DNA from: Branchiostoma floridae
Taxonomy: Eukaryota; Chordata; Leptocardii; Amphioxiformes; Branchiostomatidae
Direction of reading: 5' to 3'
NCBI RefSeq assembly: GCF_000003815.2
Contig: NC_049994.1
Span: forward strand, 3,087,464-3,151,463
DNA: 64,000 nt
The notes beneath the pieces are model-generated. The model was not told where the DNA came from. It saw only the letters and a list, made by a program, of their open reading frames with translations, and ran no database searches. Shown here piece by piece: positions 3,230-63,163 of the stretch (within the stretch, counting starts at the first letter, position 1; the number at the start of each line of letters is the position of its first letter). The position numbers and the translations under genes were made by a program.

Positions 3230-4250
3230 CCGCGGCACGTGAATCTATGATAGAGGCTACTATTTTATATATGCTGAGTCACATAGAAGAAAAAAGACAC
3301 CATTCTATGGAAAAAAGACAACTTGTCAAAGAGCAATGCCGTGTTTTAATTTATTGACGAAGATGGATTACGAAAATTGTACAAACCTATAGCAGCCTAC
3401 TGCTCACCAGTATAGGCAAATACTACTTAGCAACACCTTGATATACGTATACAGGTAAATATTTGCTACAGCTGATACTAGCCGCTTAGGTATTTTTACA
3501 GTCGGTAAAATATAAAAGGACAATTGGACCTTTAGCAGCTTAGATCTAAGCGGCCAAAACAAAGTTACTGTTATAACTAAGTGTAACATGATTATGAACA
3601 TTTAACAAATCTCTAGCAGACTACAATGTAAACATTTAGAATTGTTTAGCAACACCTTGATGCAGACACAATTAACATGTCTCTATCAGATACTAAACAC
3701 TTAAGTACATTTACAACCGTACGTTTCTCAAATACAAAGTGACAATTAGAACTTGGAAGCGAAGAAAACACGGCTATAACTAAGTGCTATATTACGTTAA
3801 ATGAACGGTGATGGTCTGGCCATTTTTTTTTAAATCGGTCGCTTTTACACACTACTTCTAGTTCTAATCAACGAAATATGGTTCATGCCACAATATACTA
3901 TAATATAATCCAGTGATGGTTACGCGAGTTAGCGTTATTTTGCTACAGCCAAACACTTAAGATATGATTATGATACGATGAAGTCTCGTGAAATTTTTGC
4001 CAACAATATTCTAGTTGGCGCATGCCTCAACCCCCCCCCCCCCCAAACAAAGACAAAAAATAACATTATAACATTTATCGAAGAAACATAGATACCGAAT
4101 TATAACAGAAGCAGAATTTGCATTCACAATAAGCTTTGGTTCTGTAACTACTGAACCATATGACACAATTTTCATTCAGGCTTTGATAGGCTTTCACCAG
4201 CGCGATCTATGAGGCCGAGTGTGTACAAGCCCCTACCTCAACATAATATG
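3230..4250. other. No gene; degenerate duplicated segments
   Basis: Two related blocks (about 3428-3600 and 3646-3790) both open with TAGCAACACCTTGAT and end with TATAACTAAGTG. A looser relative lies at 7660-7810 beyond the zinc-finger gene. A C homopolymer sits at 4030-4043. These may be decayed downstream regions of duplicated zinc-finger genes, but that is inference. Confidence 0.4.
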
Positions 4251-5253: not shown

Positions 5254-6144
5254 TTAACTAGTATGAGTCCGCGCGTGTTTCTTCAGATGAGCTGACCGAC
5301 GAAAGCATTTGTTACATTTTTCACATATGTACGGTCTCTCACCGGTGTGAGTCCGTATGTGGTCCTTTAGATGAGCTAGCTGACGAAAGCATTTGTCGCA
5401 TGTTTCACATCTGTACGGTTTGTCACTAGTGTGAGTCCGCATGTGTGTCCGCAGATTGACTAGTTGACTGAACTGCTTATTACACTGTTCACAAATGTGC
5501 GGCTTTTCACCTGTGTGTGTTCTCATATGCATCTTCAGATGACTCAGCTGACTGAACTGTTTGCTACACTCGTCGCACTTGTATGGCTTTTCACCAGTAT
5601 GAGACCATATGTGTTTCTTCAGATGTCCCATCTCACCGAACTGCCTGCTGCACGCCTCGCACTTGTAGGGTTTCTCTCCCGTGTGGGTTCGCATGTGTAC
5701 CTTCAGAGGGGATAGCTGTCTGAAACGTTTGAGACAATATTTACAAAGGTACGGTTTCTCACCTGTGTGAGTTCGTACGTGTTCCCGTAGCTGACTCAGT
5801 TGTATGAACTGCCTTCGGCACTTCTCACAAATATAGGGTTTCTCGCCTGTGTGTGTCCGCATGTGTGTCTTTAGATGACTCTTCCGACTGAACCGCCTGT
5901 TGCATTCCTCACATCTGTACGGTTTCTCACCTGTGTGAGTCCGCATGTGTGCCTTTAGATGACCCAGTCGACCAAACTGCTTGCTGCATTTCTCACACCT
6001 GTGCTGCTTCTTCACTTTGCTAGACTTGTTGTCATAGTTTTCACTGTCAACAACCTTGTACTGTTGATCGATATAGGTGGAAGATTCTCCCAACTTGTCC
6101 GACTTTTCATTTGCGTACTGCATGGCTTCAGCTATGCTTCCCAT
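5254..6144 (-). CDS. C2H2 zinc-finger protein, nine fingers
   Basis: Complete 296-residue reading frame for a probable nuclear DNA-binding protein. The first 48 or so residues are acidic/polar with no recognised effector domain. Nine consecutive Cys2-His2 fingers follow (CxxC, 12 residues, HxxxH), joined by TGEKP-type linkers; the linkers before fingers 8 and 9 read TSDKP and TGERP, and the protein ends two residues after the last HTRTH-like end. Residues at helix positions -1,2,3,6 by finger: RGHA, RSHT, QSQE, QSPV, EGHK, QSHM, QVNT, QAHD, RAHK. All zinc ligands are present. The coding exon is preceded by a good splice acceptor, so a 5' UTR exon lies upstream. No KRAB, BTB or SCAN domain is seen. 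Such short-N-terminus, single-coding-exon arrays are common in lancelets; the target and orthology are unknown. Confidence 0.9.
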
Positions 6145-6157
6145 GAAGAGCTAATAG

Positions 6158-21420: not shown

Positions 21421-21595
21421 ATATGATGGTCTTCCATAAAGTTTACTTGTTCTGGCCTTTACTTCAAGGCCAGCAAAAGCCTATCGTTTTTCTGAACGAC
21501 TACTTTTACGATATCACATATCCTTCATTACTTTAGAAGCTTTAGCTTGTATTTCGCAAAAGTCCTTGGGGAATTGATACAATCACATCGTTTAA

Positions 21596-22538
21596 CCCTA
21601 TTCAGACCGGGGGGGGGCTTTTGAGGCCCGCGCTAACTTCGATGTCCTATAACGCCAGAACGGCTTACGCTAGAGCCACCAAATTTAGTGAGTTTTCCTA
21701 AAATATTGTTGGCAACAATTCTACGAAGTTTGACAAATTTTCCATTATTTCTTGTTGCCATGGCAACCGTTTGTTGACAGGCAGTTTTGCCAAAAATCAC
21801 TATTTTTGGTTCTAACAATGTATTTTTCAAATTTATTTGCTATATTACTGTGATTTTGTTACATAAATAAAATCTTATATTATTCAGCATATCTTTCATA
21901 ATTATATATGCATAAATTATGCTAATTTGATGACGTCATCAGCCCAAAATCCAAGATGGCGGACGGAATGGCCAGATCAAGAAAAACAAGCTAATTATCC
22001 CTTAAAATTTGCAACTACCTGGTATTTTTTCATCAAAAACCATCTAAATGAATGAATTTAGTCTATTTCCATTGCCCTTTGTGATTATTTGTTGCAAAAA
22101 AAGTATTTTTAAAAATTCAAGGTGGTGGATATAATATGGCGGAGCCCAACTCGTATCTTAGATGTGCATGACGTCATTTTATGACGTCATATTGACGTCA
22201 TTGATGTTGCTATTGGCAACGCAAGTCGTAATAAACATTATTATTCTGTTATCTGCACTTGTTGTTACATTTTTTCAGCATAACTTGAAGTTTTCTGAGA
22301 ATACCCATTTTTCATGGGTTTGGCCATTGTAATCAAATTGATGACGTCATAATTACGTCATCTTACGTCAACGTAACGTCAAACGTCACATACTTGTCAG
22401 ATATTAAGTCGAAATCATGTCCTAAAAATTTGGTGGCCCTACGGCACGTCGTTTGAGAGTTATAGGACTTAAAAGTGGAGGGCCTCAAAAGCCCCCCCCC
22501 GGTCCAGGGATGACCAAAAAAGCCCGGTCTGAATAGGG
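21596..22538. mobile_element. TTAA-flanked DNA transposon (piggyBac-like MITE), complete
   Basis: Terminal inverted repeats CCCTATTCAGACCGGGGGGG (left) and CCCGGTCTGAATAGGG (right), flanked by TTAA at 21592-21595 and 22539-22542. TTAA duplication and CCC termini are typical of piggyBac-like elements. 943 bp with no transposase, so non-autonomous. A G-run near the left end pairs with a C-run near the right. The interior has at least five TGACGTCA palindromes. A truncated copy lies at 2504. Confidence 0.9.
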
Positions 22539-22542
22539 TTAA

Positions 22543-37445: not shown

Positions 37446-39000
37446 CCCCCACCTCTCATTTTTCACAAAAAGTACAGGTTTCGCGAAAAGAAGTCCGATT
37501 TCCGATCAGACGTACACATTGTTTGTCGAAAAATAGTAATTTGCTCTCTTGAGCCAAAAAGAGCATTTTTCACAAAAAAATACAGGTTTCGCGAAACAAT
37601 GTCCGATTTCCTCGGAACCAACTTTATTGCATGCGGAAAAATTCCTCGACATCAGACATACACCTTGTTTGTCGAAAAATGGTAATTTGCTCCCCCGAGC
37701 CAAAAAGAGCATTTTTCACAAAAAATTCAGGTTTCGCGAAACAATGTCCGATTTCCTCGGAACCAACTTTATTGGATGCGGAATGGTTCCTCTACATCAG
37801 GCATATACCTTGTTTGTTGAAAAATGGTAATTTGCTCTCCTGAGCCAAAAAGAGCAGTTTCGTGAAACGATGTCCGATTTTGTCGGAACCCACTTCATTG
37901 CATGCGGAACAATTCCTCAACATCAGACATACACATTTTTTGTCGACAAATGGTAATTTGCTCTACTGAGCCAAAAAGAGCATTTTTCTCAAAAAATTCA
38001 GGTTTCGCGAAACAATGTCCGATTTCCTCGAAACCAACTTTATTGCATGCGGAACGGTTCCTCGACACCAGACATACACATTTTTTGTCGAAAAATGGTA
38101 ATTTGCTCTGCTGAGCCAAAAAGAGCATTTTTCACAAAAAGTACAGGTTTCGCGAAACTATGTATGATTTTCTCCGTACCAACTTTATTGCATGCGGAAC
38201 GATTCCTCGACACCAGACATACACATTTTTTGCCGAAAAATGGTAATTTGCTCTCCTGAGCCAAAAAGAGCATTTTTCACAAAAAATACAGGGTTCGCGA
38301 AACAATGTCCGATTTCCTCGAAACCAACTTTATTGCATGCGGAATGGTTCCTCGACATCAGACATACACATTTTTTGCCGAAAAATGGTAATTTGCTCCC
38401 CCGAGCCAAAAAGAGCATTTTTCGCAAAAAATACAGGGTTCGCGAAACAATGTCCGATTTCCTCGAAACCAACTTTATTGCATGCGGAATGGTTCCTCGA
38501 CATCAGACATACACATTTTTTGTCGAAAAATGGTAATTTGCTCTGCTGAGCCAAAAAGAGCATTTTTCACAAAAAATTCAGGTTTCGCGAAACAATGTCC
38601 GATTTCCTCGAAACCAACTTTATTGCATGCGGAATGGTTCCTCGACATCAGACATACACATTTTTTGTCGACAAATGGTAATTTCCTCTGCTGAGCCAAA
38701 AAGAGTATTTTTCACAAAAAATTCAGGTTTCACGAAACAATGTCCGATTTCCTCGAAACCAACTTTATTGCATGCGGAATGGTTCCTCGACATCAGACAT
38801 ACACATTGTTTGTCGACAAATGGTAATTTCCTCTGCTGAGCCAAAAAGAGCATTTTTCACAAAAAATTCAGGTTTCGCGAAACAATGTCCGATTTCCTCG
38901 AAACCAACTTTATTGCATGCGGAACGGTTCCTCGACATCAGACATACACCTTGTTTGTTGAAAACTATTAATTTGCTCTCCTGACCCAAAAAGAGCATTT
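37445..39000 (+). repeat. 145-bp satellite array, ten to eleven copies
   Basis: The unit repeats exactly every 145 bp from about 37902 to 38984. Landmarks: GAGCCAAAAAGAGCATTTTT, GGTTTCGCGAAAC, AATGTCCGATTTCCTCG, TTATTGCATGCGGAA, CATCAGACATACACATT. One left unit is shortened (near 37855). Each unit holds the 12-bp palindrome GTTTCGCGAAAC and a GCATGC. Overlapping 70-114-codon open frames on both strands are by-products of the periodicity. Confidence 0.95.
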
Positions 39001-47430: not shown

Positions 47431-47880
47431 TCACAACATGGCAGGTCCGTTGGGATTGTAGCTTCTGTGGAAATTGTTCTTTTCCTCCATGGTTATGAGA
47501 TTGTCCACGCCATTAACTTTGCTCTTCTCGACGTATGTGTTGAACGAGTGGTTCCTGTACATCCCGCATACCCCCAGGTGTTGGGAGAACTTCTGCGACC
47601 TTCCGTGGAACTGCGTCTGCATGGTGTGTACGTTTGGGTTCCTGCCGCCGTAGTCTCCGTTGGATGTACGGTACTGGGGGTGAGGTCCCTTGGCCCGGTA
47701 TCCCTGAAACCAGTCTGGGTTGTCGAATCTTGCAGGCAACTTCTCGTGGACTCGGTAAAACTCGGAAGTCTTGGCTCCCTTCGGAATGCCCAGTTCGTCA
47801 ACCTCCTTGGGAGGGGCGATAGAGTCGTTGTTGGTCTCTTCCACCGCCTTTGGAGCGCCGTTTTCACCGGTTGCAGGCAT
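47431..47880 (-). CDS. PIERCE1: PIERCE1-like protein (piercer of microtubule wall)
   Basis: 149 residues, uninterrupted from ATG (47880) to TGA (47431). A disordered acidic N-terminus of about 35 residues precedes the conserved family block: SEFYRVHEKLPARFDNPDWF, then GYRAKGPHPQYRTSNGDYGG, the KFSQHLGVCGMYRNHSFNTY core and a C-terminal NFHRSYNPNGPAML. This order and spacing match vertebrate PIERCE1 (C9orf116), a microtubule inner protein that binds the lumen of ciliary doublets and helps dock outer dynein arms. The paralogue PIERCE2 lacks the YRV...RFNNP-like start, so PIERCE1 is preferred. Length is close to the vertebrate protein. The whole coding region is one exon here. It is head to head with SPAG16, 657 bp away, sharing a promoter with RFX-type sites. 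Confidence 0.88.
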   Translation of the reverse strand: MPATGENGAPKAVEETNNDSIAPPKEVDELGIPKGAKTSEFYRVHEKLPARFDNPDWFQGYRAKGPHPQYRTSNGDYGGRNPNVHTMQTQFHGRSQKFSQHLGVCGMYRNHSFNTYVEKSKVNGVDNLITMEEKNNFHRSYNPNGPAML

Positions 47881-48079
47881 CGTTTTGTCGTCTACACGGG
47901 TTTCTTGTCGTCCAGAAAAGGCGAGTTTGCGTCAGACTGCAAGGACAGTGGCTAAGGGAGACCACGGAAGATGTGAAACGTACCGCAAGTCAGGAGGAAG
48001 TCGAGCAGAGTGTGTGTCAAAGCAGCAATGGCGGCGTTTTGATGCCACGGGTCATGTTTGTTGTACTGTTATGGTGACC

Positions 48080-48093
48080 GTTCCCATGGAGAC
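48080..48093. promoter_or_regulatory. Imperfect RFX X-box, PIERCE1 side
   Basis: GTTCCCATGGAGAC resembles the X-box palindrome GTTGCCATGGCAAC at 11 of 14 positions. It lies 200 bp upstream of the PIERCE1-like ATG. Confidence 0.4.
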
Positions 48094-48503
48094 AAAGCAT
48101 TGTTTGTGCTACAGCGACATCTAGCGATATATGCTGACATATCAGCCTGTTTTATAACTGCTTCTATTTTTCGTTATATTTACAGCCGTGGATGCGCCAA
48201 AAATCAACTTAGTATAATAGTTATACTTCTAAAATTAAAATGTCAAGAATTAAAATTAACTCTGTCAAGAAACATGCAGGAAAAACATTATTCCTTGAAA
48301 GTTGGAAACATCCAAACGCAAAACCACCAAACAAATTCGATTGACCGAAAATATGGTTATCATAACAAATATTGTAGTGTTACAGCTTGTAAATAAATTT
48401 TCTTTATAAGTTGTGCACTTGATATCATTTCAAAACCGTTTCAACGGCCCAAAATGATTCTCAAAGGCGCAACACACGGAAAGCGTCTTTGTTTACATGC
48501 GAT

Positions 48504-48516
48504 GTTGCTTGGCAAC
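48504..48516. promoter_or_regulatory. Near-perfect RFX X-box, SPAG16 side
   Basis: GTTGCTTGGCAAC: two X-box half-sites in inverse orientation with a one-base spacer, 21 bp before the SPAG16 ATG. RFX factors use this motif to drive ciliary genes across animals. Confidence 0.8.
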
Positions 48517-48537
48517 CCGTTGTTCTTCAGAAACAAA

Positions 48538-48583
48538 ATGGCGGACGTAGAGGCTCCCGACGACAGTGCCTACTATTTGGACC
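48538..48583 (+). CDS. SPAG16: SPAG16 exon 1
   Basis: Residues 1-15, MADVEAPDDSAYYLD, plus one base of codon 16. The YYL(D/E)Q junction to exon 2 is conserved with vertebrates. The donor GTATCCTTT is U12-type. Confidence 0.85.
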
Positions 48584-51500
48584 GTATCCTTTGTCTTATA
48601 TTAATATTTAGCACTCTGTATTTCTGTGCAAATATTAGATAAAGCATAGAATTAGCCATAGAGTCTCTAAATTACTTTTGAAAGTCTATCATTATTAAAT
48701 GTCAGTCCAGAAAACTAGTGTGTTATGGGGAGGGGGGCACACACGGCAGTTTTCAGTGCCAAACTTTTTTTTTTCATTTTTCTGGGTACAATTTAGTGTT
48801 TAATAAGACGATCTGTGCCGTGTAGTTGAATAAAAAATCAGTTTACATCCTTAATATTAGTTTGACATTCCATGGTATCTATTATGGTACAAATTCAGGT
48901 ACATTGGTTTCTGTTTTGTTAGTGTTGTGTAACGTAACTAATGTTTCTACTTACCTGTCTGAAAAGATAGGGATATCGGAACAATATTACCTTTTTTTAA
49001 TACCTTGGCCAAGATAACATTTGATATTAGTGTTCTGGATTGGTCCATGTTTTACGGATTTGTATCACGCGGTTTCAATCAGATAATTTGAATGCACTCT
49101 GCGACTGCGTGCACCATTGTTGAAAAATGCACACACAGGATTTGGGCATTGGAATTGACGATTATATCCTTGAGGACACCAAACTTTCTCACCTCTTGGT
49201 GCATTTTGCATCTAAACCTATGTTTTCCATTCGGGTATGACAAAACTCATATACAGCATAGTGGTTTTTTTTTTCCTGCATGACATAAAAAGAAACTGTG
49301 TTCTGCATCGATCACCCTCGGTTTAAGGATCCTACTACATGGTGGTCAGTCTAGTACAGAATACACCGTGTTGTATTCCCTATCTATAGTTCTATCCAAC
49401 ACTTTGTTAGCTAGAATGCTATTTGACCTTGACCCATGACCCAGAGGTCACCATCACAGAGGACCTGGATGATGATTACCAGTATGAGGAGGTGTCTGTG
49501 GATGAGGAGACCATCGCTGGTAACCTTCACTTCCATATATGGAACTTCATTTACATATTGTTTATTTCCAGGGATCGAAATACTTTTTTTTTTTGGCTAC
49601 ATGCAAAATTGCAAGTTTGCAGAAATTTTACGTGCAATTTGAAAAATTTACATGCAAAATACAACAAGGCGGCAATCACGACAAGGATCGCTAGCTTGAA
49701 TTGGCGAATTTTGATTACATCTAGTGAAGTTACCGGAGAAAGTTACCGGCAAAAACAAAGATGAAAAAGAAAGACGTCCATATGTTGTTCTGTCTAAGAG
49801 TAGGGTGTCTAATTCCTGAGAGTATTTTTTTACGGCCAGGTGTTTTCAACATGCAAGATTGCAAGTTCAGAATATTTTTACGTGCAAATCTCGAAAATAA
49901 TGTGCAAATTGCAAGTTAAGTATGTGTATTTATTCGAACCCTGATTTCTAACTTGAAAGTTCTGACTGTGTTGGTAGGAGTCATTCTGGATAAAGTTTGA
50001 TTTGTAATTTTTTAACACAAGAAACTGGACTTATCCAATTTTTTGACTGATTGAATCTTGGACCTGTCTTAAATGTGAAGGAATGTGAAGAAAAATCCAC
50101 AGCTTCTGCGATGTCATGTTATGTAGATAACACACGTGACTCAGGCAGCAGTTGATCTTAAGTTTAAGAGAGTTTATTTTGCTCTTTGGCTCTTACTTAG
50201 TGATCATACTTAGGTTGCACTTGCTGTACAATTCATTGGCTATACAAATAAAGAAACTGAAAATGAGCAATAACCATTTTCTTGCTGTTTTCAGAAGGCG
50301 ATGAGGACTTGGATGCTGCAGTGAGAGTGATAGAAGAGGCAGCACAGGATATAAGGGCTTCAGTAAGTCAATCATCCTCTCCTTCTATTCTATAATAAGA
50401 CTGAGTCACAATTTCTTAAGTGGTGTTGAGTGACTTGAGATTAAGCGGTCACAGGTTTGATGGCATTTCTGGCTAGATATCATGTCCTTCGAAAAAACAC
50501 TTTACACGAAAAAAAACCCACCCCATCCAGGTGTAAAAATGGGTATATCTGACTAATCAGTTAGGGAAGTAAAAGGCAGTAGAAGGAGAGTAAAGGGATA
50601 GGATTTGCCTTCAATACCATGCCCTAGATACAGAAAATATTGGGTCATGACAGCCTACATATACTTTTGATTTTGATTTATCTGTGTCTTTCATGTTTCA
50701 GTTGTATTTATATGTTCCGACATATATGTCTACTTTTCTCTCTGTAAGTTTTTTATTTTTTTATTTCCTCGTATGTATATGTGAAATCTGGGCCCTATTG
50801 AAAACCAGGGTACTAGCACTGAATAGGCTATCCAGGTGTATGAAAATAAACAAAACAAAACAAACAACATGTACTTTCAAACCTACAAAAGCAATTAGAT
50901 AGTCATTACATCTTCTTTAAGTCAGGAATGTTTTTACCATTGTATTAAACATTTTTGTGTTTAAGAATCTAGTAGTATAAAACAAGACTAGTGAAGGATA
51001 TTGATGTCGATGCATCATGTTATGATACTACAGCTGCGTAGAGAGGGTGTTCCTGGTCCTGCTGTTATCGAGCGTCCGGAGGTGGTGGATGATTTCGTAA
51101 GGAACTATCTCCTAAAGATGGGGATGAGGAAGACTCTGGAATGCTTCCAGACAGAGTGGTAAGTAGGAAATTTTGATGTAAAAATTAAAGTGGACTCGAC
51201 AAGCAACTAACATCTTTTACAATGCAGTTGTATCTTAGTAAGCCATCTCTCTCTCTCTCTCTCTGACCGGTTTAGCGTCCGTTCTTCCCTGTAGCAGGGG
51301 TTGGACGTGTCGCCATGACGTTTTGGTTTAACTGCTGCTCTCCCTCCATCATCTTCGCCTGGGGCAGCAAATCAAACACACAACACGACTTGGCAAGGAT
51401 TTGAAGCGGGGGTTTTTACGGTTGAATGGCCTTTCTAACACCAACTCTGCTCACAGCCACCAGAGTCCGGCTGGGTTTCTTAGAGTTTTCCTTCTCTTGA

Positions 51501-54500
51501 GTTGGTTGGTGTTTCAGGTCACTTGGATGTTGAGTAAATCTGGAGCCGTATAGATTTAAATTTTTATCTACTTGTCGGCCCAACCAATTTCGTCGCTTAC
51601 AGCTTCTTCAGTGGTTAGAGATAAATGACAAAAACATACATGGAGTTTGCCCTCATATACTGTCCTAGTGCATTTTCATACCTTTGAATGACATAAATGT
51701 AGGATCATAAGAATTCAGTGTAATGAGTGATAAAATTTCTAATAAATGACAAACTTTTGATAATTTGAGGGAATAACGGAGACATAGCTTCTGAGCTTTT
51801 TGTGTTGATTGCTTCAAGTTTCATATATTAGTAGCACATATAATTTTTAGACTACTTAGACTCATTGTCAGAAGGTATAATGACTTTAATTTTTTCAGGT
51901 ATGAACTTCAACAGAAGGGTCTGCTTAAGGAAGAGGATGTACAAACAGTTCCAGATGTTTATTCCAGGTAAGATTTGCTGTCGTTGTGTCACTATGGCAG
52001 GGCTCTAGCCAGCGTCCGTTTTTCCGTCAATTGACGGAAATTTGCTGCGTGTGACGGAAAAATTTTATAACCAATCCGTCAACCTTGACGGTCAAAAATC
52101 TGATGAAATCTCTTTGGTGGAAGCTATAGGTGGCTTGGGGACGCCGTCCACGGCCGTAAAAGCCACACACTGTTTATTTTGCTATTGTTATGATTGTTGA
52201 CAATGTGTGTCGGTGCCCTTTCGCATACGATAATCTCATTAAAACCCGTTTTTCAAGGTCTCAGTACAGTCTCTCTAACTCCTGGAATAGTGTTTTCGCG
52301 ACAATGGGAATTGGCTGACGGAAAAAAATTTCGAGCTGGCTAGAGCCCTGCACTTTTGCAACAATTTTTTTGTTAAAAGTACCTTCAGCCGCAACTTGCT
52401 GCATAAGACCAGACTGTACGGTTTGATCCACTCACACCATGCAGAAAGGACCCCTACTTTTTTTGATAAGTGTGGTGGGTTCTTTAATGTGCTTAAAGTG
52501 TATATGGTTCAAGAATCAAGATATCCCCAAACATGGGACCTCCAAGAAACATTCTATCAAAAGGGACGACACTAACCAAAGTGGTACTCATTTTGACCTG
52601 AGTTAGCCTGGTATCCAGCCGTATTATACCTCCCGAGTCTCTTCTGTCCTCTACACAAATACAGAAGAGACTCAGGAGCTATGATATGGCTGGATACCAG
52701 GCTAGACCTGAGTAGCATAAGAGTAAGGAAATAGGACGTGAAGTGATGTTTACATAAAAGGCACAAAAATTTAGCCTTCTTTCACACATATATGGCTCGT
52801 TCTCATTTAAATGTCGAAATGCTGTCGCCTGACTTTACGCCTTGATATAGAGCAAATTATAGACAACATCACTGGTTTCTTCATTTTTCCACAACCCCTG
52901 TAATGTTTTACAAAAGATGCACCACAACATTCGTATTGGTTGATGGCTTAAAAGATTATAATAGCCACGGGTGGGATTTCACACCCTAAAAAATGGCTGT
53001 CGCCTGAGAAGAAACAAAGAATTCAAATAGTAGCCAAAAATTTAACAATTCAGTTCCCACAATGATTTGTTCGGCAGGTGAAACCAGCTACCCAGGCCCT
53101 CTGCCCGATCACGTCAGATCGCTACTGTCACTGATCTTGGAGGCTGTGTGAGGTGGTTTATGCCTGTCGCCAGATTCTGTAACAAACGTTACCACCACTA
53201 GTGCGATGGTTGCCACAGTTATATTATACACTTATAAGACTTGAAGTGGCCGTTTTTGTGACGCTGTACAGTTTTTCTGGCTTTCTAAAGAAACAAGAAA
53301 GGGTTGTTGACTGTCATTGTCGCCCACCTTGCTTACAAAATGTTGTACAGAAATGACTCTAACAAACGTTACCATTGCCACTTTTCAAATATCCCTATGG
53401 ACGTCCACTTATACCTAAATGATGTAGTCAATAAGGTAAGTCCTTTCGAAGAAAACAGGGTAAAGTCTACTGTTGTAACAAATGTTACTGGTAACGTTTG
53501 TTACCTGCGCTGTAATGCATTACCAATGGGACCGAAAATAATAAGTTGGTTAAAAGAGGAATTTTCCCAAAGAACCAAGTAGTTTTCAGTGAAAATAAAG
53601 CCGCTTTATTTTTCGACCAAAAAAATGCCATTTTCGACATTTCAATGAGAACGAGTGATATATGTCCTGTGTGCCGCACCCGAATATTTCCGGAATAGAG
53701 TATTCCCCCGAAGTAGCAACTTTGAGCGCACGTAGCGCACGAACCCCGGAAGTTTGGGACTTGGGCCTTGTTCGGGGGGTTCTTTTTGGAGGTCAGCAGC
53801 CAACCCTGGCACTGATAGCATTTTGTAGTGCTGAAACTCTGGCAGTTTAACGGTTAAACATGTAAGCTTTAGATTGTGAGTACACAACCCTAACCGCTAG
53901 ACAACCTTGCCCCTCCGTACAGGAACCAACAGCTTGATGACCATGTTAAACTTCTCAGGAAGGAGGTGGACAAGTTCAAGGATGCTGCCAAGTAAGACTG
54001 AAGTTTCTAACATGATCTTTAACCTTAGTCCTAAGTTGGTTACAATTTATTATTTCAATCTAATTTTAGAGGTATGAGATAGCTACTGTTACATTAATGG
54101 CATTAAGGATTTTGAAAGCTCAAAAATTTTATTATATAACAGAATTATGAGATCTTTGATGTCTTGTTCTGTTTTTCCCAGTCCGAAAATACATTATTGT
54201 TTTTTTGCCAGTATGTTCTTTTTTCCTTTGATTCCTTTTTTCTGCCATTAGCCAATCAGAGCTAAGGTTACATTTGAGCTGCAAATATGAGCAATCAGTA
54301 GCCAATCAGATATTACCTGTTATTGCAAATATGAGTATTTCTGTTTCTTGCACACAATGCTATAGGGCAGGCCCAATGGTTTAGTACGATTATGATAATG
54401 ACCTGGTCCAAGCAGATGTTTGTTGTTGTTGTTTTTTTCTCATACAATACTATAAGGCGAGCCTAACGGTATACATCATGTAGTATTGCAAGTGGCTTGA

Positions 54501-57500
54501 CTAAAAGGGTACAGGAAAAGTGTTGTACCTTTTCCCAAGAATGTTGCCTTTCTAGTTACAACCATTATTTCATTTCTACCAACAGCAAAGCCAAGGACAT
54601 GTACGTGAAACTGCGTAAAGAGAGAGATTTCCACCGAATGCACCACAAGAGGGTTGTACAGGAGAAGAACAAGCTGGTAACCGACATCAAAAGGTACTTA
54701 ATAAATATTATGTTTGCAAACTCTTTTATCTTCTAGAGGACTTGACTTTGCAGTAATGCTAGTTCACCTTTATCCATGTCTGTTATATTTGAAAAAGTGT
54801 AATTAGTGACATGCAGTTGACAGATAGTGGTTTCAAATTGCACTTTTTTTCAAAATATCTATTGCAGGTTGAAACCACCGTACTTAACATTGTCTGACTT
54901 GAAATCCCTAAATATAGACATGCACAACACAGCAGTATGTTGCATAATAGTATGTATTGCAGTGTACTTATAATAGTTTGTGGTAACGCTGAAGAAGAGC
55001 GATGGACATCTTTCTAATTTTCATGTGGAATCAGCATCGAGGACGGGTTTAGAATTGTAGTAGTCACTGTGAGTTCACATCTGTTTATCCTCTGTAGCTT
55101 TGTATGTAGCCTCTTAGTACTACTGTCTGTATAGCTATTAGCTGTTACTAATTGCCATACATTGTACCCTGTGTGATTGTTGAGCAATAAAATTCATTCA
55201 TTCATTCATTCTGTGGATAAGTGATACCAAGATTTCCACTAAGTCCTGTCCAACATAACAGAGCAGAGTTTGTCAACCTAAAGGCATGTATCCTCCATGA
55301 GTAACAGTGAGACACTATCTGTGCTGAGCTCTTCTGTATGTTGTAATATGTTTTGTTCCTGTGTACACTAGGCTGAAGAAACACTACGCCTCCTACGAGC
55401 CCACCCTACGCCAGCTGAAGCACAAGTATGAGACAGCCATGAAGGAGAAGATGTTGTCTAAACTGGAGAGGGACAGGGCTGTGGGACAGGTAAGTTTTTG
55501 TCTTGGAGTTTTAAGAAAAAAACCTGGAAGTCAAAGGACACATTTAGTGTTCGTGTCAGGCATTTTTAACATAGGGGGCCTCTGTGCTGTAAAGTTGATC
55601 CCCTTTAAGATACATGCTGTGATTTGGGTCCATATGCTGTGAGTGTGATCCCTACACTGTGATTTGGGTCCCTATGGTGTGTTTTGGGACCCTTCACTGT
55701 GATTTAGATCCCTATGCTGTGATTTGGGCCCTTACACTGTGAATTAGATATGCTATGTACACTGCTATTTGGGCCCGTATGCTTTCTTCCAACCAGCGCT
55801 GGGGACTTTTCTGTTGTTTGGTAAAAAATTGGATTTACCTTTAGTTCTAAATTTGGCCCTCAAAATGCAGTAAAAATTAATATTGTTTCTGAGTAGTAGT
55901 ATCCATTATTTGATTATGTTGCTGTTGGGATCCCTGACACAGGGTTATAAATTCAATTTTAGGAGGAGGATTCTCTACAATGCTCTTGCCTGCATCGCTT
56001 ATCAAGTAATCATGATAATATCCATGATTTATATTGTGTTTTGTTTACTCATATAATGCAGGTCAGTGGTCTCCAGGCCACCTTGAAGAATATAGAGACA
56101 GGCAGAGGAGAGACAGTCTTTCTTCAAGGAGGTAAGCAAGATTTTTATCTTAATTTTCAGAGCAAATTCAAGGCATCTAAAAAGTGCTACAACCCTTAAG
56201 TCTCAGTTATGACCCCATGAAAATAATTGTTGTATTAGGTATGGTCCAACCTGTCTTAAATGATTTATAAGTAGGGACTTGATACTTGTGTCTGACAAAA
56301 TATGGCAAAAAGACTACCAAAAAGTTGCCACAGTAGCCAAGTAACCCTTAGACTAAGAGTTGGTCAATTGTACAGATTTGACACTGTACTTGCATCTTGA
56401 AAATTTTGGTACAACTGCAAAGTACATGACCATGCAGTAGTGCCCTCTAGTGACTTTTGTAATTATTGCAGCATTACTATTGGTTGACATAACAATTTAC
56501 TGTGTCTGTTCAGTCCATAGTTCCCGTGAGTTGGCGAAGGCCGGGATAGGGCCCACACAGCAGAGCCTGCGTGAGGCTAGGAACATCGAGGGTCTGCCAG
56601 GGTACGATCCCAGTAAGGATCCTACCAGGGGCGAATTCAAGAGACATCCCAAAGTAAGTTTAATTTCTTGAGATTGCAGAAAAACCCAGGCAGTTTAGCT
56701 GATACTAGATGCAGTTTGAAGACACTTAAAAGTGCCTGTGACATTGATATTGAAATACAAAAGTTATGGAATACAAACCATCATAATAAGTATTTTGTCA
56801 CATAATTGTATACTTACTAATACTATAGTAATTGGTACAAAATATAGATTTTTTTTAACATAGTGGACATAAAACTGTTCAAATTTTGATTCCATTTCTT
56901 AATTCATAACCACCAGATAATCATGTTGCTTTATCTGTGTGGTAACCTAAATTTATATCTGCTGCTTTTGAAAATGGGGTATTTAGGGATATCACGTTGA
57001 TAAATTAAGCAATATTTTCAAAATGAACACATTTCACATATTTGGACTATATTACAAATTTTGAAACCACTGTCTGCTGACTTCATATCCTGAAATACCT
57101 CGTTTTTGAACTCATTCGATTCCCTTAATTTCCCTTAAAATCACAAAATTGTTTCATGTGTTTTTTCCACATTAGGATACAGAGTTTCCACTGGACAACA
57201 GAGTCAACCCCTACTTGACCAGTCAGAAGACACCCACTGGTCATCTGACCAGGACCGGAGGCTTCCGACTGACCAACACCCTGCATGCTCACCAACTGGC
57301 CATCAGCAAGTATGTTCTCTGTGCAATTATGAAAGATGTGAGGATTTTAAAAAAAGTTATTATTTTGAGGAAAAGTGGCACCAAGGACAGGACCAGTATG
57401 TCTGGTGTAAGGTACTATTAGATTGTTACTGAAGGAACAGTAGCACCAAGGACAGGACCAGTATGTATGGTGTAAGGGAGCATTAGATGGTTACTGAAGG

Positions 57501-60500
57501 TACAGTAGCACCAAGGACAGGACCAGTATGTATGGTGTAAGGGAGCATTAGATGGTTACTGAAGGTACAGTAGCACCAAGGACAGGACCAGTATGTATGG
57601 TGTAAGGGAGCATTAGATGGTTACTGAAGGTACAGTAGCACCAAGGACAGGACCAGTATGTATGGTGTAAGGGAGCATTAGATGGTTACTGAAGGTACAA
57701 TAGCACCAAGGACAGGACCCGTATGTATGGTGTAAGGGAGCATTAGATGGTTACTGAAGGTACAGTAGCACCAAGGACAGGACCAGTATGTATGGTGTAA
57801 GGGAGCATTAGATGGTTACTGAAGGAACAGTAGCACCAAGGACAGGACCAGTATGTCTGGTGTAAGGTACTATTAGATTGTTACTGAAGGAACAGTAGCA
57901 CCAAGGACAGGACCAGTATGTATGGTGTAAGGGAGCATTAGATGGTTACTGAAGGTACAGTAGCACCAAGGACAGGACCCGTATGTATGGTGTAAGGGAG
58001 CATTAGATGGTTACTGAAGGTACAATAGCACCAAGGACAGGACCCGTATGTATGGTGTAAGGGAGCATTAGATGGTTACTGAAGGTACAATAGCACCAAG
58101 GACAGGACCAGTATGTTTGGTGTAAGGGTGCATTAGATGGTTACTGAAGGTACAGTAGCACCAAGGACAGGACCAGTATGTATGGTGTAAGGGAGCATTA
58201 GATGGTTACTGAAGGTACAGTAGCACCAAGGACAGGACCAGTATGTATGGTGTAAGGGAGCATTAGATGGTTACTGAAGGTACAGTAGCACCAAGGACAG
58301 GACCCGTATGTATGGTGTAAGGGAGCATTAGATGGTTACTGAAGGTACAATAGCACCAAGGACAGGACCAGTATGTTTGGTGTAAGGGTGCATTAGATGG
58401 TTACTGAAGGTACAGTAGCACCAAGGACAGGACCAGTATGTATGGTGTAAGGGAGCATTAGATGGTTACTGAAGGTACAGTAGCACCAAGGACAGGACCA
58501 GTATGTATGGTGTAAGGGAGCATTAGATGGTTACTGAAGGTACAGTAGCACCAAGGACAGGACCAGTATGTATGGTGTAAGGGAGCATTAGATGGTTACT
58601 GAAGGTACAGTAGCACCAAGGACAGGACCAGTATGTTTGGTGTAAGGGTGCATTAGATGGTTACTGAAAGACCATTAGCACCAAGTACAGGACCAGTATG
58701 TTTGGTGTAAGGGGGCATTGGTTGGTTACTGAATAGTCTAAAGTGACCATTCAAGAATTGTTTTGATTTGACCTAGAATGAAATCTCCTTGGTTTGACTG
58801 TATTTTCATCCTTCAAAATATAGATGCCTTACAAATGTGCAACAGATGGTTACTGAAGGTACAGTAGCAGCATGAACAGGACCAGTGGACTAGCCCCTTT
58901 TTGTAGCAATTTCAAAAAGTTGTGTGGCCGAGGGCTACTGAAATGGAGATGGGCACTGTCCTATATGCCTTCGCGCTCTGGAAAGACTTTGACTTGAACA
59001 GAACATGAAATTGGCTGATACTACTGGAAAACTAACACCAATGACATGGCATGATGAAAATGCAATGAAGAACTGTAACAGTGTGACCAGTATGTATGGT
59101 ATAAGTTAGCATTAGATGGTGCAATGGGCGAGTGGGCAGAGTGTTCGCCTTGCATTCGGTAGGTCGTGAGTTCAATTCCTGGCCGAGTCATACCAAAGAC
59201 TCTAAAAATGGTACATGGTGCTTTCTCTGCTTAGCACTCAGCACTAATGAGGAAGAGTACGGAAGTTAAACACACATCACTACCAGCGGACCAGCCCCCT
59301 GCTGTAGTGGCTTGCACATGTGTGGCCCAAGGGCTTAGAAGCGGAGATGGGTGCCACCGTACGCATCTGTAGATGCAAGGGCAAACTTTAACTTTTTTTA
59401 AAACTGTAACAGTAACTGTGCTGGGTGTTTTTTGTGTTACAGTTTGGCCCTACACCCTCGTAAGGAGATTTTGGTCACCACAAGTGATGACCACACCTGG
59501 AAGATGTGGGCCATTCCTAACGGTGACATCATCATGACTGGGGAGGGTCACGAGGACTGGGTGTCTGCAGCTGACTTCCATCCAAGGTAAATGTCAATCA
59601 ACACATGACATCATCACATGGGGGTGGAGTCTAGGATGATTGAAGCATAGCTGCGGTGTTGAGCTTTAGATACAGATAATTCAGCAGTACTGAATCAGCT
59701 GAATCACATGGGGGTGAAGGTTTTAGGTTTTAGTGCTTCAGCCATATTCAAGAAATTCAGATTTTTGGGACAAACTGTAAATTTCTGTTCGAAAATTAAG
59801 TGATGAATCCTATTGATGGCTCTAATTAGAATTAGAGAAAAACTTTCAGTCTTCAAACAACTTTTTTCAAACTAATCCTCCAAAGTGTAGTTGTATGAAT
59901 TCCCATTAAATGTCAAATAATGGTTACTCAACAATACATGGTGTAGTTACTTGATTTCAGGACTGCAGTATAATTCCAAAAGTATTCTTCACTTGAAAAT
60001 TGCATTGTTATGTTGAACTATGCAATAATTAATCATTTTTCATGTTGTGACTTCCAGTGGTACCAAGCTAGCCACTACTGCAGGTGACAGTACAGTAAAG
60101 GTGTGGGACTTTGCCAAGACTGAATGTACCGTCACATTCGCAGAACACACACATGCAGGTAAGTCTTGAAAAAAAAAATTACTTTCCACTTTGGACTGTG
60201 CTTGACACTGGGCACTTTATTTCTGACCAATTCGTTGGTTTGACTGTTTGACTGTACAGTCAAACCTCTATTAGTGGCCACCTTTGCATACCGGCCACCT
60301 GCCCATAGTGGCCACTTTTTGTCGGTCCCTTGGATTCGTAATGATTAAGAAATAGGCTTATCGGCCACCTGTCCAACGCGGCCACGGCCACACGATTTCC
60401 GGTCCCGCAGGTACAAAGACACTGCCGATTACGGCCACGCGGACTGCTGATCTTTGTTTCGGCACGCGTTCAGCCATATACAGCGGCCGTATCGTCACCC

Positions 60501-63163
60501 TACGCAGGATTTAAAACCTCTTTGATTGATTTTCAAAACAAAACTTCGCAAACTGGCGCTACATATACCCGCTGACAAACGAGGTCATATAAGGTCAATA
60601 GACGGCATCAATATTACGGAGGTAAATTGTGTTAAAGTTACGTTCTAATGCACTATCGCTTAGGTTAATTTACATCACAAAAACTTTCTGAATAAATTGT
60701 TACAAAGACAAAATGATATGAACTTCAGACTATGGTGGATTTTATTCTTACATTTATTAAGAGATAAGTCTAAAATGACGAGACTTTTCTTATGAGTACC
60801 ATATTAGCATAATGGGCGAATCTGACGTGTGAACGCGAGCGGTAAACACACGGACGGCGAAGTATCAAAGGATACAACACGAAAGATCAAAGAAATATGA
60901 CGATACCGGTCTCTTCATACAATATCAACTGTAGAACATTTAAAACTTTTTATAGCTTTTGTTTTCTTAATACATATAGTGTAAAAATCATTGCAGTACA
61001 TGTACAGTACTGTATTATGTGAATAAAGATCAGTGGGCACTAAAACAATGTGAAACTTATTGCCTCTGGTCAATTAATTAGCATATTCTCTATAGTGGCA
61101 ACCTCTCTATAGTGGCCAATTTTGACCAGTCCCTTGAGTGGCCGCTATAGACAGGTTTGACTGTATTTTCATCTTGAAAATTTGGATACCTTATACAGTA
61201 CAGCAGTGCCCTCTTTTGACTTTTGTTAGAATTGCAGCACTTCTAAAAAAATCCAAAGCCTTTCATCTTTGGACTGTGCTTGCTTGGCACTTGTCACTTG
61301 CTTTGACCAAGATCAGACCTCATCAATTTGACTGACTGTATTCTCATATCAATGCAGCAGTGCCCACTTGTGACTTTTGTAAGAATTGCAGCACTAATAA
61401 AAGAACTGAAACCCTTTCAGCCTGGGATTGTGCTTGGCACTGGACTGGTGACTTCCTAGCGTCCTGCTCCATGGATAACACATCGAAGGTCTGGGACCTG
61501 AACAGCGAGCGATGTCGCTACACTCTACGCGGGCACGCCGACTCCGTGAACAGTATCACATTCCTGTACTACTCCAACACTCTCTGTACTGGCTCCGCGG
61601 ACAAGACCATCTCTCTATGGGATGCCAGAACTGTGAGTCTAGCATAAAAGTTTGCATACCTTAAATTCACATATTTTTGTGGAAACTTTGATTCTGTGAT
61701 AGGGGGGGGGGGCTGTTGTTTTTTCCTGCAGCTCTCTGTTGAAATTCATAATCAGATGAAGTGCAAATGAATGTAATTATTATTGAATTTGGAAACCACA
61801 ACAACAAAAATACTGCTAGCAATTCAATATTGTTTATCAATAAACTTGAACTTTGTCATAACTATACTGAATAAGTCGTTCTTTGGATTTATTAAGGTTA
61901 GTGCCATTGCTTACATTTTTCACTAAAGAAAAAAAAAAAGGATTATGAGTGAATGGAACTAAATGAATTTTTTGGCCATATTTTCAACAGGGACTGTGCG
62001 CTCAGACCTTCTATGGCCACATGCACTCTGTCAACAATGTGACATTCAACCTGAGGGTGAGTACTACTATTTATGATCAGATTGTGTGACTGATGATGAT
62101 GTGTATACAGTTTGAAACTTTTTGATCAAATTAGAATGTTTACATAAAGATAGGATATTCTACCAAACAAATTCATTTGTAGCAAAATGGACCTGATGTT
62201 TTGAGTATTGCACCTGGACCTGTTCCTCTGTACGTGGACTGTACCTGAAGCTAAATTTTCTGTACCGGTACTTACCAGTAGTCCTGACAGATGTCTAAAC
62301 CGTGTTCCCCTCCCCAGGGTGACACCATAGCGTCCTGTGACTCGTACGGTGTACTGAAGCTATGGGACGTGCGGGCCATCGCTACCATCACCAGCGTGGA
62401 CCTGGGGCCGCACCCAACCAACAGGGTGGCCTTTGACCCCTCTGGTAAGTTAACGCGTCAACTGTCTTATTATGTTAAAATTTTAAACTCTATATCCGTA
62501 CACAAAATAAAGCACCAACAAGCTTTCGATCAGTCCTCTGATCCTGATCAAGTCTGGATGTGTGACTTAGGCTTTGGGTAATTTCAACTTGATAAGGATC
62601 AGAGGTCTGATCGAAAGCTTGTTGGTTACCGCTTTTTTTGTGTATTGGTATACAGTTTAAAATTTTAACATAATGTTGCCTACCGTCAGAGACAAACTTA
62701 TGTCAGCTATGTTATTTCATTGGTTCATTCATTCATGCATTCTTTCAGACAATAATTCAGTCATCCATTCATTCAGTCAGTCATGCATTCATTCCTTCAT
62801 CATCCATCAAATCATTCATTCATTCAATTCATCCATTTACCCAACTTTATGCACGCATTTGTGTTTACTTGAGAGTTACACTACTACACTACATTAACAA
62901 GAATCTCCTTTAAATTTGTTTTTACTTGTAGTCGAATCATCTAGTTTTGTGAAGTCATTTACAAACTTTGACAGTCACTAGTCTAATCAGATCAATCATG
63001 TTTTTTTTTTTTTTTTATGAAATGTTTGAAGGAAAAGTCCAGTGTTGTATTTGTGTATTGTTTTGTTCTAACTGCTGAATATTTTTGCACATTTTCAGGC
63101 CAAGTTCTTGCTGTTGCTAGTAACGATGGAACAGTGAAGATGTTTGAGGTTGGGTCTGGACAG
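48538..63163 (+). CDS. SPAG16: SPAG16/PF20 axonemal central-apparatus WD-repeat protein (3'-partial)
   Basis: Seventeen exons join in frame to 579 residues: 48538-48583, 49445-49519, 50295-50362, 51034-51158, 51899-51967, 53923-53991, 54586-54693, 55372-55489, 56062-56131, 56514-56653, 57176-57309, 59443-59586, 60058-60158, 61421-61632, 61991-62056, 62318-62444, 63099-63163. Every intron is GT-AG. Layout: acidic N-terminus (1-60), LisH-like segment (about 80-107), coiled coil (127-235) with RDFHRMHHKR, a linker with PTQQSLREAR, then WD repeats from about 325 with blade ends WKMW, VKVWD, SKVWD, ISLWD, LKLWD and VKMFE. These match vertebrate SPAG16, the orthologue of Chlamydomonas PF20, which bridges the central-pair microtubules and is needed for flagellar beating. 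About 50 C-terminal residues (last blade) lie past the window. It is divergent from PIERCE1. Confidence 0.95.
48584..49444 (+). other. SPAG16: SPAG16 intron 1, probable U12-type (minor spliceosome)
   Basis: The donor GTATCCTTT (48584-48592) matches the U12 consensus RTATCCTTT exactly. The branch-like CCTTGAC (49427-49433) puts its A 12 bases before the AG of the acceptor, within the U12 range, and there is no strong pyrimidine tract at the acceptor. The ends are GT-AG. Other SPAG16 introns look U2-type. Confidence 0.8.
49445..49519 (+). CDS. SPAG16: SPAG16 exon 2
   Basis: Residues 16-40, QVTITEDLDDDYQYEEVSVD then EETIA. The acidic DDYxYEE stretch is a SPAG16 hallmark. Donor GTAACC. Confidence 0.9.
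49569..49943. mobile_element. Possible hAT-like MITE in intron 2
   Basis: Left CAGGGATCGAAATAC and right TATTCGAACCCTG are imperfect inverses with CAGGG ends. No target duplication is preserved. The interior has two direct copies of an ATTGCAAGTT...TTTTACGTGCAA segment. Confidence 0.45.
50295..50362 (+). CDS. SPAG16: SPAG16 exon 3
   Basis: Residues 41-63, EGDEDLDAAVRVIEEAAQDI then RAS. Acceptor TTTTCAG, donor GTAAGT. Confidence 0.9.
50460..50640 (+). repeat. SINE body fragment in intron 3
   Basis: CACTTTACACGA, CAGGTGTAAAAATGGGTA and related phrases follow the order of the SINE at 32797, much diverged. Confidence 0.45.
51034..51158 (+). CDS. SPAG16: SPAG16 exon 4
   Basis: Residues 64-105 (codon split), including VVDDFVRNYLLKMGMRKTLE and CFQTEW, the LisH-like dimerisation segment. 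Donor GTAAGT. Confidence 0.93.
51240..51490 (+). repeat. CT run and dispersed repeat in intron 4
   Basis: A short CT microsatellite (51247-51264) is followed by about 220 bp of GC-richer sequence (TTAGCGTCCGTTCTTCCCTG, CAGGGGTTGGACGTG) unlike the surrounding intron. Probably a dispersed repeat; no second copy is in this window. Confidence 0.4.
51899..51967 (+). CDS. SPAG16: SPAG16 exon 5
   Basis: Residues 105-127, WYELQQKGLLKEEDVQTVPD then VYS. It completes the LisH-like segment. Donor GTAAGA. Confidence 0.93.
51998..52350. mobile_element. hAT-like MITE in intron 5
   Basis: Perfect 16-bp inverted termini CAGGGCTCTAGCCAGC/GCTGGCTAGAGCCCTG. Flanking 8-mers CACTATGG and CACTTTTG match at 6 of 8 positions. 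CAGGG ends and 8-bp duplication fit hAT. Interior has repeated TGACGGAAA/TTTCCGTCA words. 353 bp, no transposase. Confidence 0.85.
52430..52590 (-). repeat. Reverse SINE body fragment in intron 5
   Basis: TTTGATAAGTGTGGTGGGTT and ACATGGGACCTCCA follow the reverse complement of the SINE body. The MITE at 52604 inserted within it: its target duplication GACCTGAGT is part of the SINE phrase. Confidence 0.6.
52604..52704. mobile_element. TAGCCTGG-type MITE, third copy, perfect 9-bp target duplication
   Basis: Inverted termini TAGCCTGGTATCCAGCC/GGCTGGATACCAGGCTA (17 bp, perfect). GACCTGAGT flanks both ends (52595-52603, 52705-52713). 101 bp. It appears to be the youngest copy in the window. Confidence 0.92.
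53923..53991 (+). CDS. SPAG16: SPAG16 exon 6
   Basis: Residues 128-150, start of the coiled coil: NQQLDDHVKLLRKEVDKFKD then AA. Donor GTAAGA. Confidence 0.93.
54586..54693 (+). CDS. SPAG16: SPAG16 exon 7
   Basis: Residues 151-186, coiled coil with the signature KERDFHRMHHKRVVQEKNKL. Donor GTACTT is weak but the frame join to exon 8 is conserved. Confidence 0.95.
55372..55489 (+). CDS. SPAG16: SPAG16 exon 8
   Basis: Residues 187-226, RLKKHYASYEPTLRQLKHKY through LERDRAVGQ; coiled coil continues. Donor GTAAGT. Confidence 0.95.
55590..55755 (+). repeat. Degenerate short tandem repeat in intron 8
   Basis: About seven diverged copies of a 20-22-bp unit like TGTGATTTGGGTCCCTATGC. Confidence 0.7.
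56062..56131 (+). CDS. SPAG16: SPAG16 exon 9
   Basis: Residues 227-249, VSGLQATLKNIETGRGETVF then LQG; end of the coiled coil. Donor GTAAGC. Confidence 0.92.
56514..56653 (+). CDS. SPAG16: SPAG16 exon 10
   Basis: Residues 250-296, linker with GPTQQSLREARN (conserved) followed by a lineage-variable stretch ending FKRHPK. Donor GTAAGT. Confidence 0.92.
57176..57309 (+). CDS. SPAG16: SPAG16 exon 11
   Basis: Residues 297-340, DTEFPLDNRVNPYLTSQKTP through HAHQLAIS. DxEFPxD is conserved; the end begins WD blade 1. Donor GTATGT. Confidence 0.92.
57370..58740 (+). repeat. 65-bp minisatellite in SPAG16 intron 11, about 21 copies
   Basis: Very homogeneous unit with TAGCACCAAGGACAGGACCA, GTATGTATGGTGTAAGGGAG and CATTAGATGGTTACTGAAGG. 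It begins about 60 bp after the exon 11 donor. Variants recur at multiples of the unit: GTATGTTTGG at 58111, 58371 and 58631 (every 260 bp) and GTATGTCTGG at about 57395 and 57851 (seven units apart), showing multi-unit duplication. Confidence 0.97.
58855..58995 (+). mobile_element. 3' part of tRNA-SINE in intron 11
   Basis: GACTAGCCCC, TGTAGCAATT, GTGTGGCCGAGGGCTACTGA, GGAGATGGGCAC and a TTTGACTT end match the 3' half of the SINE at 21131. No promoter head. Confidence 0.7.
59117..59400 (+). mobile_element. tRNA-derived SINE in intron 11
   Basis: Head with GCGAGTGGGCAGAGTG (A-box-like) and GAGTTCAATTCCTGG (B-box-like); body with GACCAGCCCCCTGCTGTAGT, GCGGAGATGGGTGCCA and a TTTAACTTTTTTT end. 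Same family and orientation as 21131-21420. It ends about 45 bp before exon 12. Confidence 0.85.
59443..59586 (+). CDS. SPAG16: SPAG16 exon 12
   Basis: Residues 341-388. Rest of WD blade 1 (LVTTSDDHTWKMW) and start of blade 2 (GHEDWVSAADFHP). Donor GTAAAT. Confidence 0.95.
60058..60158 (+). CDS. SPAG16: SPAG16 exon 13
   Basis: Residues 389-422, WD blade 2 (KLATTAGDSTVKVWD) and FAEHTHA. Donor GTAAGT. Confidence 0.95.
60257..61163. mobile_element. pogo/Tigger-like non-autonomous element in intron 13
   Basis: Inverted termini CAGTCAAACCTCTATTAGTG (left) and AGGTTTGACTG (right), flanked by TA at 60255-60256 and 61164-61165. CAGTCAAACC ends with TA duplication are typical of pogo/Tigger elements. 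907 bp, both subterminal regions rich in TGGCCAC/GTGGCCA, no transposase frame. Confidence 0.88.
61170..61420 (+). repeat. Tandem duplication of exon 14 acceptor region
   Basis: GCAGTGCCC, TGACTTTTGTNAGAATTGCA and GCACT occur at about 61203-61245 and 61356-61395. After the first copy, CCTTTCATCTTTGGACTGTG then CTTGCTTGGCACTTG mimics the real CCCTTTCAG-exon 14 junction. A further mimic (TTTGGACTGTGCTTGACACT) lies at 60192, left of the pogo-like insertion. Confidence 0.65.
61421..61632 (+). CDS. SPAG16: SPAG16 exon 14
   Basis: Residues 423-493, WD blades 3 and 4: WDCAWHWTGDFLASCSMDNT then SKVWD, and RGHADSVNSITF...DKTISLWDART. Largest exon. Donor GTGAGT. Confidence 0.96.
61991..62056 (+). CDS. 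SPAG16: SPAG16 exon 15
   Basis: Residues 494-515, GLCAQTFYGHMHSVNNVTFN then LR, first half of blade 5. Donor GTGAGT. Confidence 0.95.
62318..62444 (+). CDS. SPAG16: SPAG16 exon 16
   Basis: Residues 516-557, rest of blade 5 (IASCDSYGVLKLWDVR) and start of blade 6 (VDLGPHPTNRVAFDPS). Donor GTAAGT. Confidence 0.96.
62472..62671. mobile_element. 200-bp fold-back element in intron 16
   Basis: ATGTTAAAATTTTAAACT at the left is exactly inverted at the right. Inside, CCAACAAGCTTTCGATCAG and CTGATCGAAAGCTTGTTGG are also exact inverses, and ATCCTGATCAAGT pairs loosely with ACTTGATAAGGAT. About 80 bp of each half can pair. Confidence 0.85.
62700..62840 (+). repeat. Degenerate CATT/ATTC simple repeat in intron 16
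   Basis: Imperfect ATTCATTC, ATCCATTC and AGTCAGTC words over about 130 bp. Confidence 0.8.
63099..63163 (+). CDS. SPAG16: SPAG16 exon 17 (last exon in window)
   Basis: Residues 558-579, blade 6 end: QVLAVASNDGTVKMFEVGSG then Q. Donor GTGAGA. The final blade is encoded beyond 64000. Confidence 0.93.

Follow-up and report, generated by a model that had tools for sequence, protein, structure and literature searches.

Divergent gene pairs are well described in amphioxus, where bidirectional promoters involve 3,950 of 15,884 neighbouring genes (25%), or 1,975 pairs; passages of the same study describe an amphioxus cilium module of 261 genes, a cilium gene module common to amphioxus and zebrafish, and RFX in the set of motifs displayed for modules that correlate highly between these two animals, and give GSE106429 as the accession of the B. 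lanceolatum CAGE data (PMC6292497). Rfx motifs are strongly enriched in the promoters of multiciliated-cell genes from Nematostella to human, according to the part of PMC5245798 that deals with them, and forkhead motifs in these promoters may be dispensable.

Here we describe a pair of axonemal genes that combines the two features, a short divergent interval and candidate RFX sites (X-boxes). It lies in a 64,000-bp stretch of Branchiostoma floridae DNA (C16:3087464-3151463, hereafter the window) and is composed of the following parts.

47431-47880, minus strand: PIERCE1 coding sequence, a single exon of 149 aa plus stop
47881-48537, no strand: ATG-to-ATG interval of 657 bp between PIERCE1 and SPAG16
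48538-63163, plus strand: SPAG16, 17 coding exons within the window, the first at 48538-48583 and the last at 63099-63163

The minus-strand open reading frame is intact and intronless, with its start codon at 47880 and its stop at 47433-47431. It contains a PIRC1_2 Pfam domain (E = 1.3e-36) and matches five PIERCE1 chains in the PDB at 3.7e-37 to 1.1e-24, versus only 4e-4 for a PIERCE2 chain. Judged by these matches, it is PIERCE1 (Piercer of microtubule wall 1), nearer to PIERCE1 than to PIERCE2. A six-frame search of the 513,431,437-bp genome gave a strong PIERCE1 match at this locus only; the remaining two matches are short pieces on C5, parts of an exon-split PIERCE2 gene.

The plus-strand model joins 17 exons with GT-AG ends in an unbroken frame of 579 aa. 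Its product aligns with a SPAG16 chain (9ijj; 8.3e-189) over residues 8-579 of 579 and with Chlamydomonas PF20 (1.2e-164) over residues 20-576, a near full-length match that takes in both the N-terminal region and the WD repeats. One further exon probably lies past the window edge, where an open frame resembles a C-terminal WD repeat. A preliminary description of this DNA had named both genes, and these names hold, as do the divergent orientation and the distance of exactly 657 bp that it gave. The locus thus has the divergent genes and short common interval of a bidirectional promoter.

Several other elements are present in the window. A minisatellite of 65-bp units (~21 copies, 96% match) occupies 57374-58733 within a SPAG16 intron. 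Left of PIERCE1, at a distance of about 8 kb, a tandem array at 37505-39000 has a 145-bp unit and ~8 copies in its largest row, and a 298-aa open frame in one exon on the minus strand at 5254-6150 encodes at least eight C2H2 zinc fingers.

The two X-boxes that had been reported for the interval, a near-perfect one at 48504 and a weaker one at 48080, are present, together with forkhead-type and YY1/TISU-like words. Consensus motifs underlie all of these calls: the simple scheme by which X-boxes were scored, the RYMAACA word for forkhead sites and the word for YY1/TISU.

48055-48061, minus strand: ACAAACA, a forkhead-type word close to the X-box on the PIERCE1 side
48080-48093, no strand: the weaker of the two X-boxes, GTTCCCATGGAGAC, at a distance of 199 bp to the PIERCE1 ATG
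48101-48107, minus strand: ACAAACA, a second forkhead-type word close to the X-box on the PIERCE1 side
48490-48496, minus strand: GTAAACA, a forkhead-type word separated from the strong X-box by 7 bp
48504-48516, no strand: strong X-box GTTGCTTGGCAAC, 21 bp from the assigned SPAG16 ATG
48535-48545, plus strand: YY1/TISU-like word AAAATGGCGGA, spanning the assigned SPAG16 ATG, with 1 mismatch to the consensus

The two X-boxes are separated by 410 bp and each is nearer its own gene, the strong one lying 623 bp from the PIERCE1 ATG. GC content is 51% over 47881-48100, 32% over 48101-48450 and 48% over 48451-48583, the last stretch extending into SPAG16 exon 1. The SPAG16 start codon is uncertain, because in-frame ATGs occur upstream of the assigned one (48538) at 48454 and 48502; a start at 48502 would place the strong X-box inside the coding sequence. 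The YY1/TISU-like word at the assigned start, a motif that we picked after inspecting the sequence, has six others like it in the window, one of them in the interval at 48025.

The exact 13-bp pattern GTTGCYNRGYAAC occurs in the window only at 48504-48516. Once one mismatch is allowed, the window has three matches to this pattern, no more than shuffled sequence readily gives (mean 1.63, with 23 of 100 shuffles reaching three). A looser 14-bp pattern has two matches, one at 48080-48093 and the other at 21754 in a transposon, against a shuffle mean of 0.17 and three of 100 shuffles that reach two. Ranked by X-box score among 191,961 window positions, the 48504 site is tied second and the 48080 site ninth, while the first-ranked and the other tied-second scores both fall in the transposon.

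Simulated intervals support the view that the 48504 X-box is stronger than chance yields. A site at least as strong was found in one of 2000 order-1 intervals and in none of 400 order-2 intervals. The weaker X-box is not rare by chance (39 of 2000 intervals hold a site at least as strong), and no interval among 2000 reached both strengths together. All three RYMAACA words in the interval lie within 25 bp of an X-box, an arrangement equalled in 18 of 4000 simulations. A forkhead word at both X-boxes was seen in 59 of 4000, whereas three or more such words anywhere in the interval are common (935 of 4000); this forkhead test was chosen post hoc, after inspection of the sequence.

In real DNA, seven of 477 overlapping 657-bp tiles from the window and its flanks hold a site as strong as that at 48504. 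Three sites are responsible, at 21754 and 22206 in the window and at L008:9580, and all are in or match one transposon; around L008:9580, 125 of 135 bases agree with the surroundings of 22206. Within the background DNA scanned, sites equal in strength to 48504 are confined to a single transposon family.

The window copy of this transposon is a 945-bp element with terminal inverted repeats (TIRs) at 21595-22539. It carries a perfect palindromic X-box, GTTGCCATGGCAAC, at 21754-21767 and a second strong X-box at 22206-22220. All 40 scored candidates, taken from 2596 first-look candidates and including the window copy, are full-length at 97-100%. In its 22-letter context, the element's X-box has 209 exact occurrences in the genome, compared with none for a reversed control. 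Through this one family of transposons, which is apparently young, at least 209 perfect RFX sites seem to have been dispersed across the genome. The X-box at 21754 was considered as a second cilium promoter and rejected because it sits within this many-copy TIR transposon.

Among five other cilium genes checked for X-boxes, PIERCE2, DNALI1 and ENKUR provide support, RIBC2 does not, and the fifth cannot be judged. The distance from X-box to assigned ATG is 81 bp in PIERCE2, 93 bp in DNALI1 and 154 bp in ENKUR, and each of these X-boxes is the best or tied-best in its own 10-kb stretch. The first exon of DNALI1 is confirmed by a match (1.3e-7), that of ENKUR has a weak match (7e-4), and that of PIERCE2 was deduced from an open reading frame that ends in a splice donor, the identity of the gene being drawn from later exons. 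The best single match of this C5 gene is to a chain of sea-urchin type that bears the name Pierce1 (8.6e-20), with PIERCE2 next (9.4e-16); we call it PIERCE2 because the PIERCE2 chains match including their N-terminal NPGNP-FSCM block. Its X-box, GTCACCATAGCAAC, lies at L007:4009-4022, with a weaker one at 3983.

No X-box scoring above 24.5 was found for RIBC2 in the 1 kb fetched (~860 bp upstream of the ATG); this gene likely has a 5' UTR intron. A second enkurin-domain gene, on C3 and with its 5' end unplaced, has no X-box above 23.5 in 10 kb. ENKUR has two forkhead words, starting ~28 and ~47 bp past the end of its X-box, and none occurs within 150 bp of the DNALI1 and PIERCE2 X-boxes.

Genome-wide, the 16-letter pattern GTTGCYNRGYAACNNG occurs at 389 places, compared with 44 for a reversed control. 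Repeats add to this excess: of 30 loci extracted from the 389, all on C1, 12 belong to three sets whose members overlap or resemble one another in sequence. A survey of such loci by eye as evidence from cilium genes was dropped, as the remaining loci could not be reliably assigned to genes.

DNALI1 is itself head to head with another gene, EMC2, at an ATG-to-ATG distance of 182 bp (L075:3271-3454, on C17), with a strong X-box in between at 3346-3360. One EMC2 exon matches at 4.4e-10, and the start peptide next to DNALI1 is probably that of EMC2. This second pair indicates that cilium genes in divergent, X-box-bearing pairs are not rare in the B. floridae genome, and also that an X-box in a divergent interval does not by itself make both genes cilium genes. 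Under independence, a set of 261 cilium genes would give 0.32 cilium-cilium divergent pairs, and an assumed set of 900 would give 3.78.

The preliminary description had proposed co-regulation by RFX from one bidirectional promoter. The RFX part of this proposal gains from a 48504 site that beats chance and from X-boxes at three of five other cilium genes, but a single promoter now appears weaker than two adjacent ones. We favor two abutting RFX modules over one core promoter because the sites are 410 bp apart, each is nearest its own gene, and the DNA between them has 32% GC. PIERCE1 and SPAG16 would then form a divergent motile-cilium pair with one proximal RFX site per gene, the strong site on the SPAG16 side and the weaker one on the PIERCE1 side, and with forkhead-type words within ~20 bp of each. 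The 657-bp interval would hold two short promoters with an AT-rich spacer of ~410 bp between them. RFX, with FOXJ1, may bind both modules in motile-cilium cells and sperm, so that both genes would be on together, and RFX dimers could bridge the modules. From gene layout and motifs we infer the RFX binding, the transcription starts and the co-expression; the pairing itself would most simply be a product of the abundant divergent pairs in such genomes. As a whole, we regard this as the best explanation, with a probability of about 0.6.

An unlikely alternative is a single shared core promoter, in which 48504, with the weaker site, would drive both genes from one nucleosome-depleted region. The genes are divergent with less than 1 kb between them, and in the far tighter DNALI1-EMC2 interval an X-box lies inside 182 bp. 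Paired amphioxus starts have 0, 1 or 2 nucleosomes between them (a passage of PMC6292497), a range that the few hundred bp between the putative starts here would fit and that allows two modules as well as one core promoter. Against a shared core stand the two separate site clusters with their GC-poor spacer and the 623 bp between the strong site and the PIERCE1 ATG.

How the genes came to be neighbors is a separate matter, since the possible origins are compatible with either promoter arrangement. A stronger form of the idea, a dedicated cilium promoter unit whose RFX sites would join a doublet-lumen gene to a central-apparatus gene, appears doubtful; such a unit would have one of two origins, an old pair that vertebrates have lost or a PIERCE1 retrocopy that was inserted at the SPAG16 promoter and then replaced its parent.

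The retrocopy origin is a conjecture and, in our estimate, rather improbable. PIERCE1 would have landed beside SPAG16 and taken over its RFX neighborhood, like AmphiSYCP1 beside AmphiCHIC, the amphioxus precedent (PMC5803294, in the portion on SYCP1). The gene is intronless, while its paralog PIERCE2 on C5 has coding introns and the Fig. 5 legend of PMC7398528 refers to introns as well as exons in the mammalian gene. Conversely, the 5' region of PIERCE1 is GC-richer and the gene has an X-box to itself, an intron-bearing PIERCE1 was not found in the genome, and the ~830 bp scanned 3' of the stop contain no AATAAA and one ATTAAA.

Rather improbable, too, is an ancient pairing, of deuterostome age or older, that shared RFX control would have kept together and that was broken in vertebrates. 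It would be in line with 372 putatively ancestral bidirectional promoters, most of them lost in vertebrates and 54.5% in stem vertebrates, as given in a section of PMC6292497. Against it, SPAG16 and PIERCE1 were not found together in the literature collection searched, which yielded no publication linking the two; SPAG16 and C9orf116 co-occur there in a testis single-cell review, judged by its title. In human, SPAG16 and PIERCE1 are presumably on different chromosomes, with MRPS2 as the presumed head-to-head neighbor of PIERCE1.

The sequence GTTGCCAAGCGAC, part of a primer for mutagenesis of the PIERCE1 promoter in human (primer details of PMC7398528), agrees in 12 of 13 letters with the strong X-box of the window read on the PIERCE1 strand. 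If this portion of the primer is unmutated, as we assume, the similarity suggests that RFX control of PIERCE1 predates its arrangement with SPAG16. The weakest reading, chance neighbors with chance motifs and without a regulatory link, could draw on the ~0.3 to 4 cilium-cilium pairs expected by chance and on a transposon that also spreads perfect X-boxes, but it is highly improbable given how strong the 48504 site is, where it lies, and how similarly X-boxes are placed at three other cilium genes.

The implied novelty of the pair is reduced because a quarter of amphioxus neighbors have bidirectional promoters, as cited above from PMC6292497, and because of DNALI1-EMC2. The PIERCE1-SPAG16 layout is real and tidy, but its kind is common in the genome, and a new principle is probably not to be expected. 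At present it is a good but ordinary case of two known phenomena, divergent amphioxus pairs and RFX-controlled cilium genes. If both transcription starts lie inside the interval, the locus would offer a compact test bed for RFX sites driving two axonemal genes jointly, and also for the splitting of such pairs by vertebrate genome duplication.

Like the CAGE-defined bidirectional promoters of amphioxus, the locus consists of divergent protein-coding genes with a short interval; those promoters are enriched in housekeeping genes in the account of PMC6292497, whereas here both are cilium genes, and their starts are putative. With the RFX/FOXJ1 motile-cilium promoters treated in part of PMC5245798 it shares an X-box near the start of an axonemal gene, a distance of 21 bp for SPAG16 and, with the weaker site, 199 bp for PIERCE1; it differs in having two such candidate promoters back to back, recognized by their motifs. 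AmphiSYCP1-AmphiCHIC is likewise a single-coding-exon gene beside a divergent neighbor's promoter in amphioxus, and its origin is argued from gene structure in three species in the pertinent part of PMC5803294, compared with a conjecture for PIERCE1. The PACRG-PARK2 bidirectional promoter, as presented in a passage of PMC3555705, also includes a cilium gene. In the window, both partners are axonemal. PACRG's partner Park2, in contrast, is a Parkinson's disease gene and not axonemal. A parallel in the same genome, DNALI1-EMC2, also places a cilium gene head to head with a neighbor and an X-box in the interval, but differs from PIERCE1-SPAG16 in its housekeeping partner and in the shorter distance, 182 bp, between the two genes.
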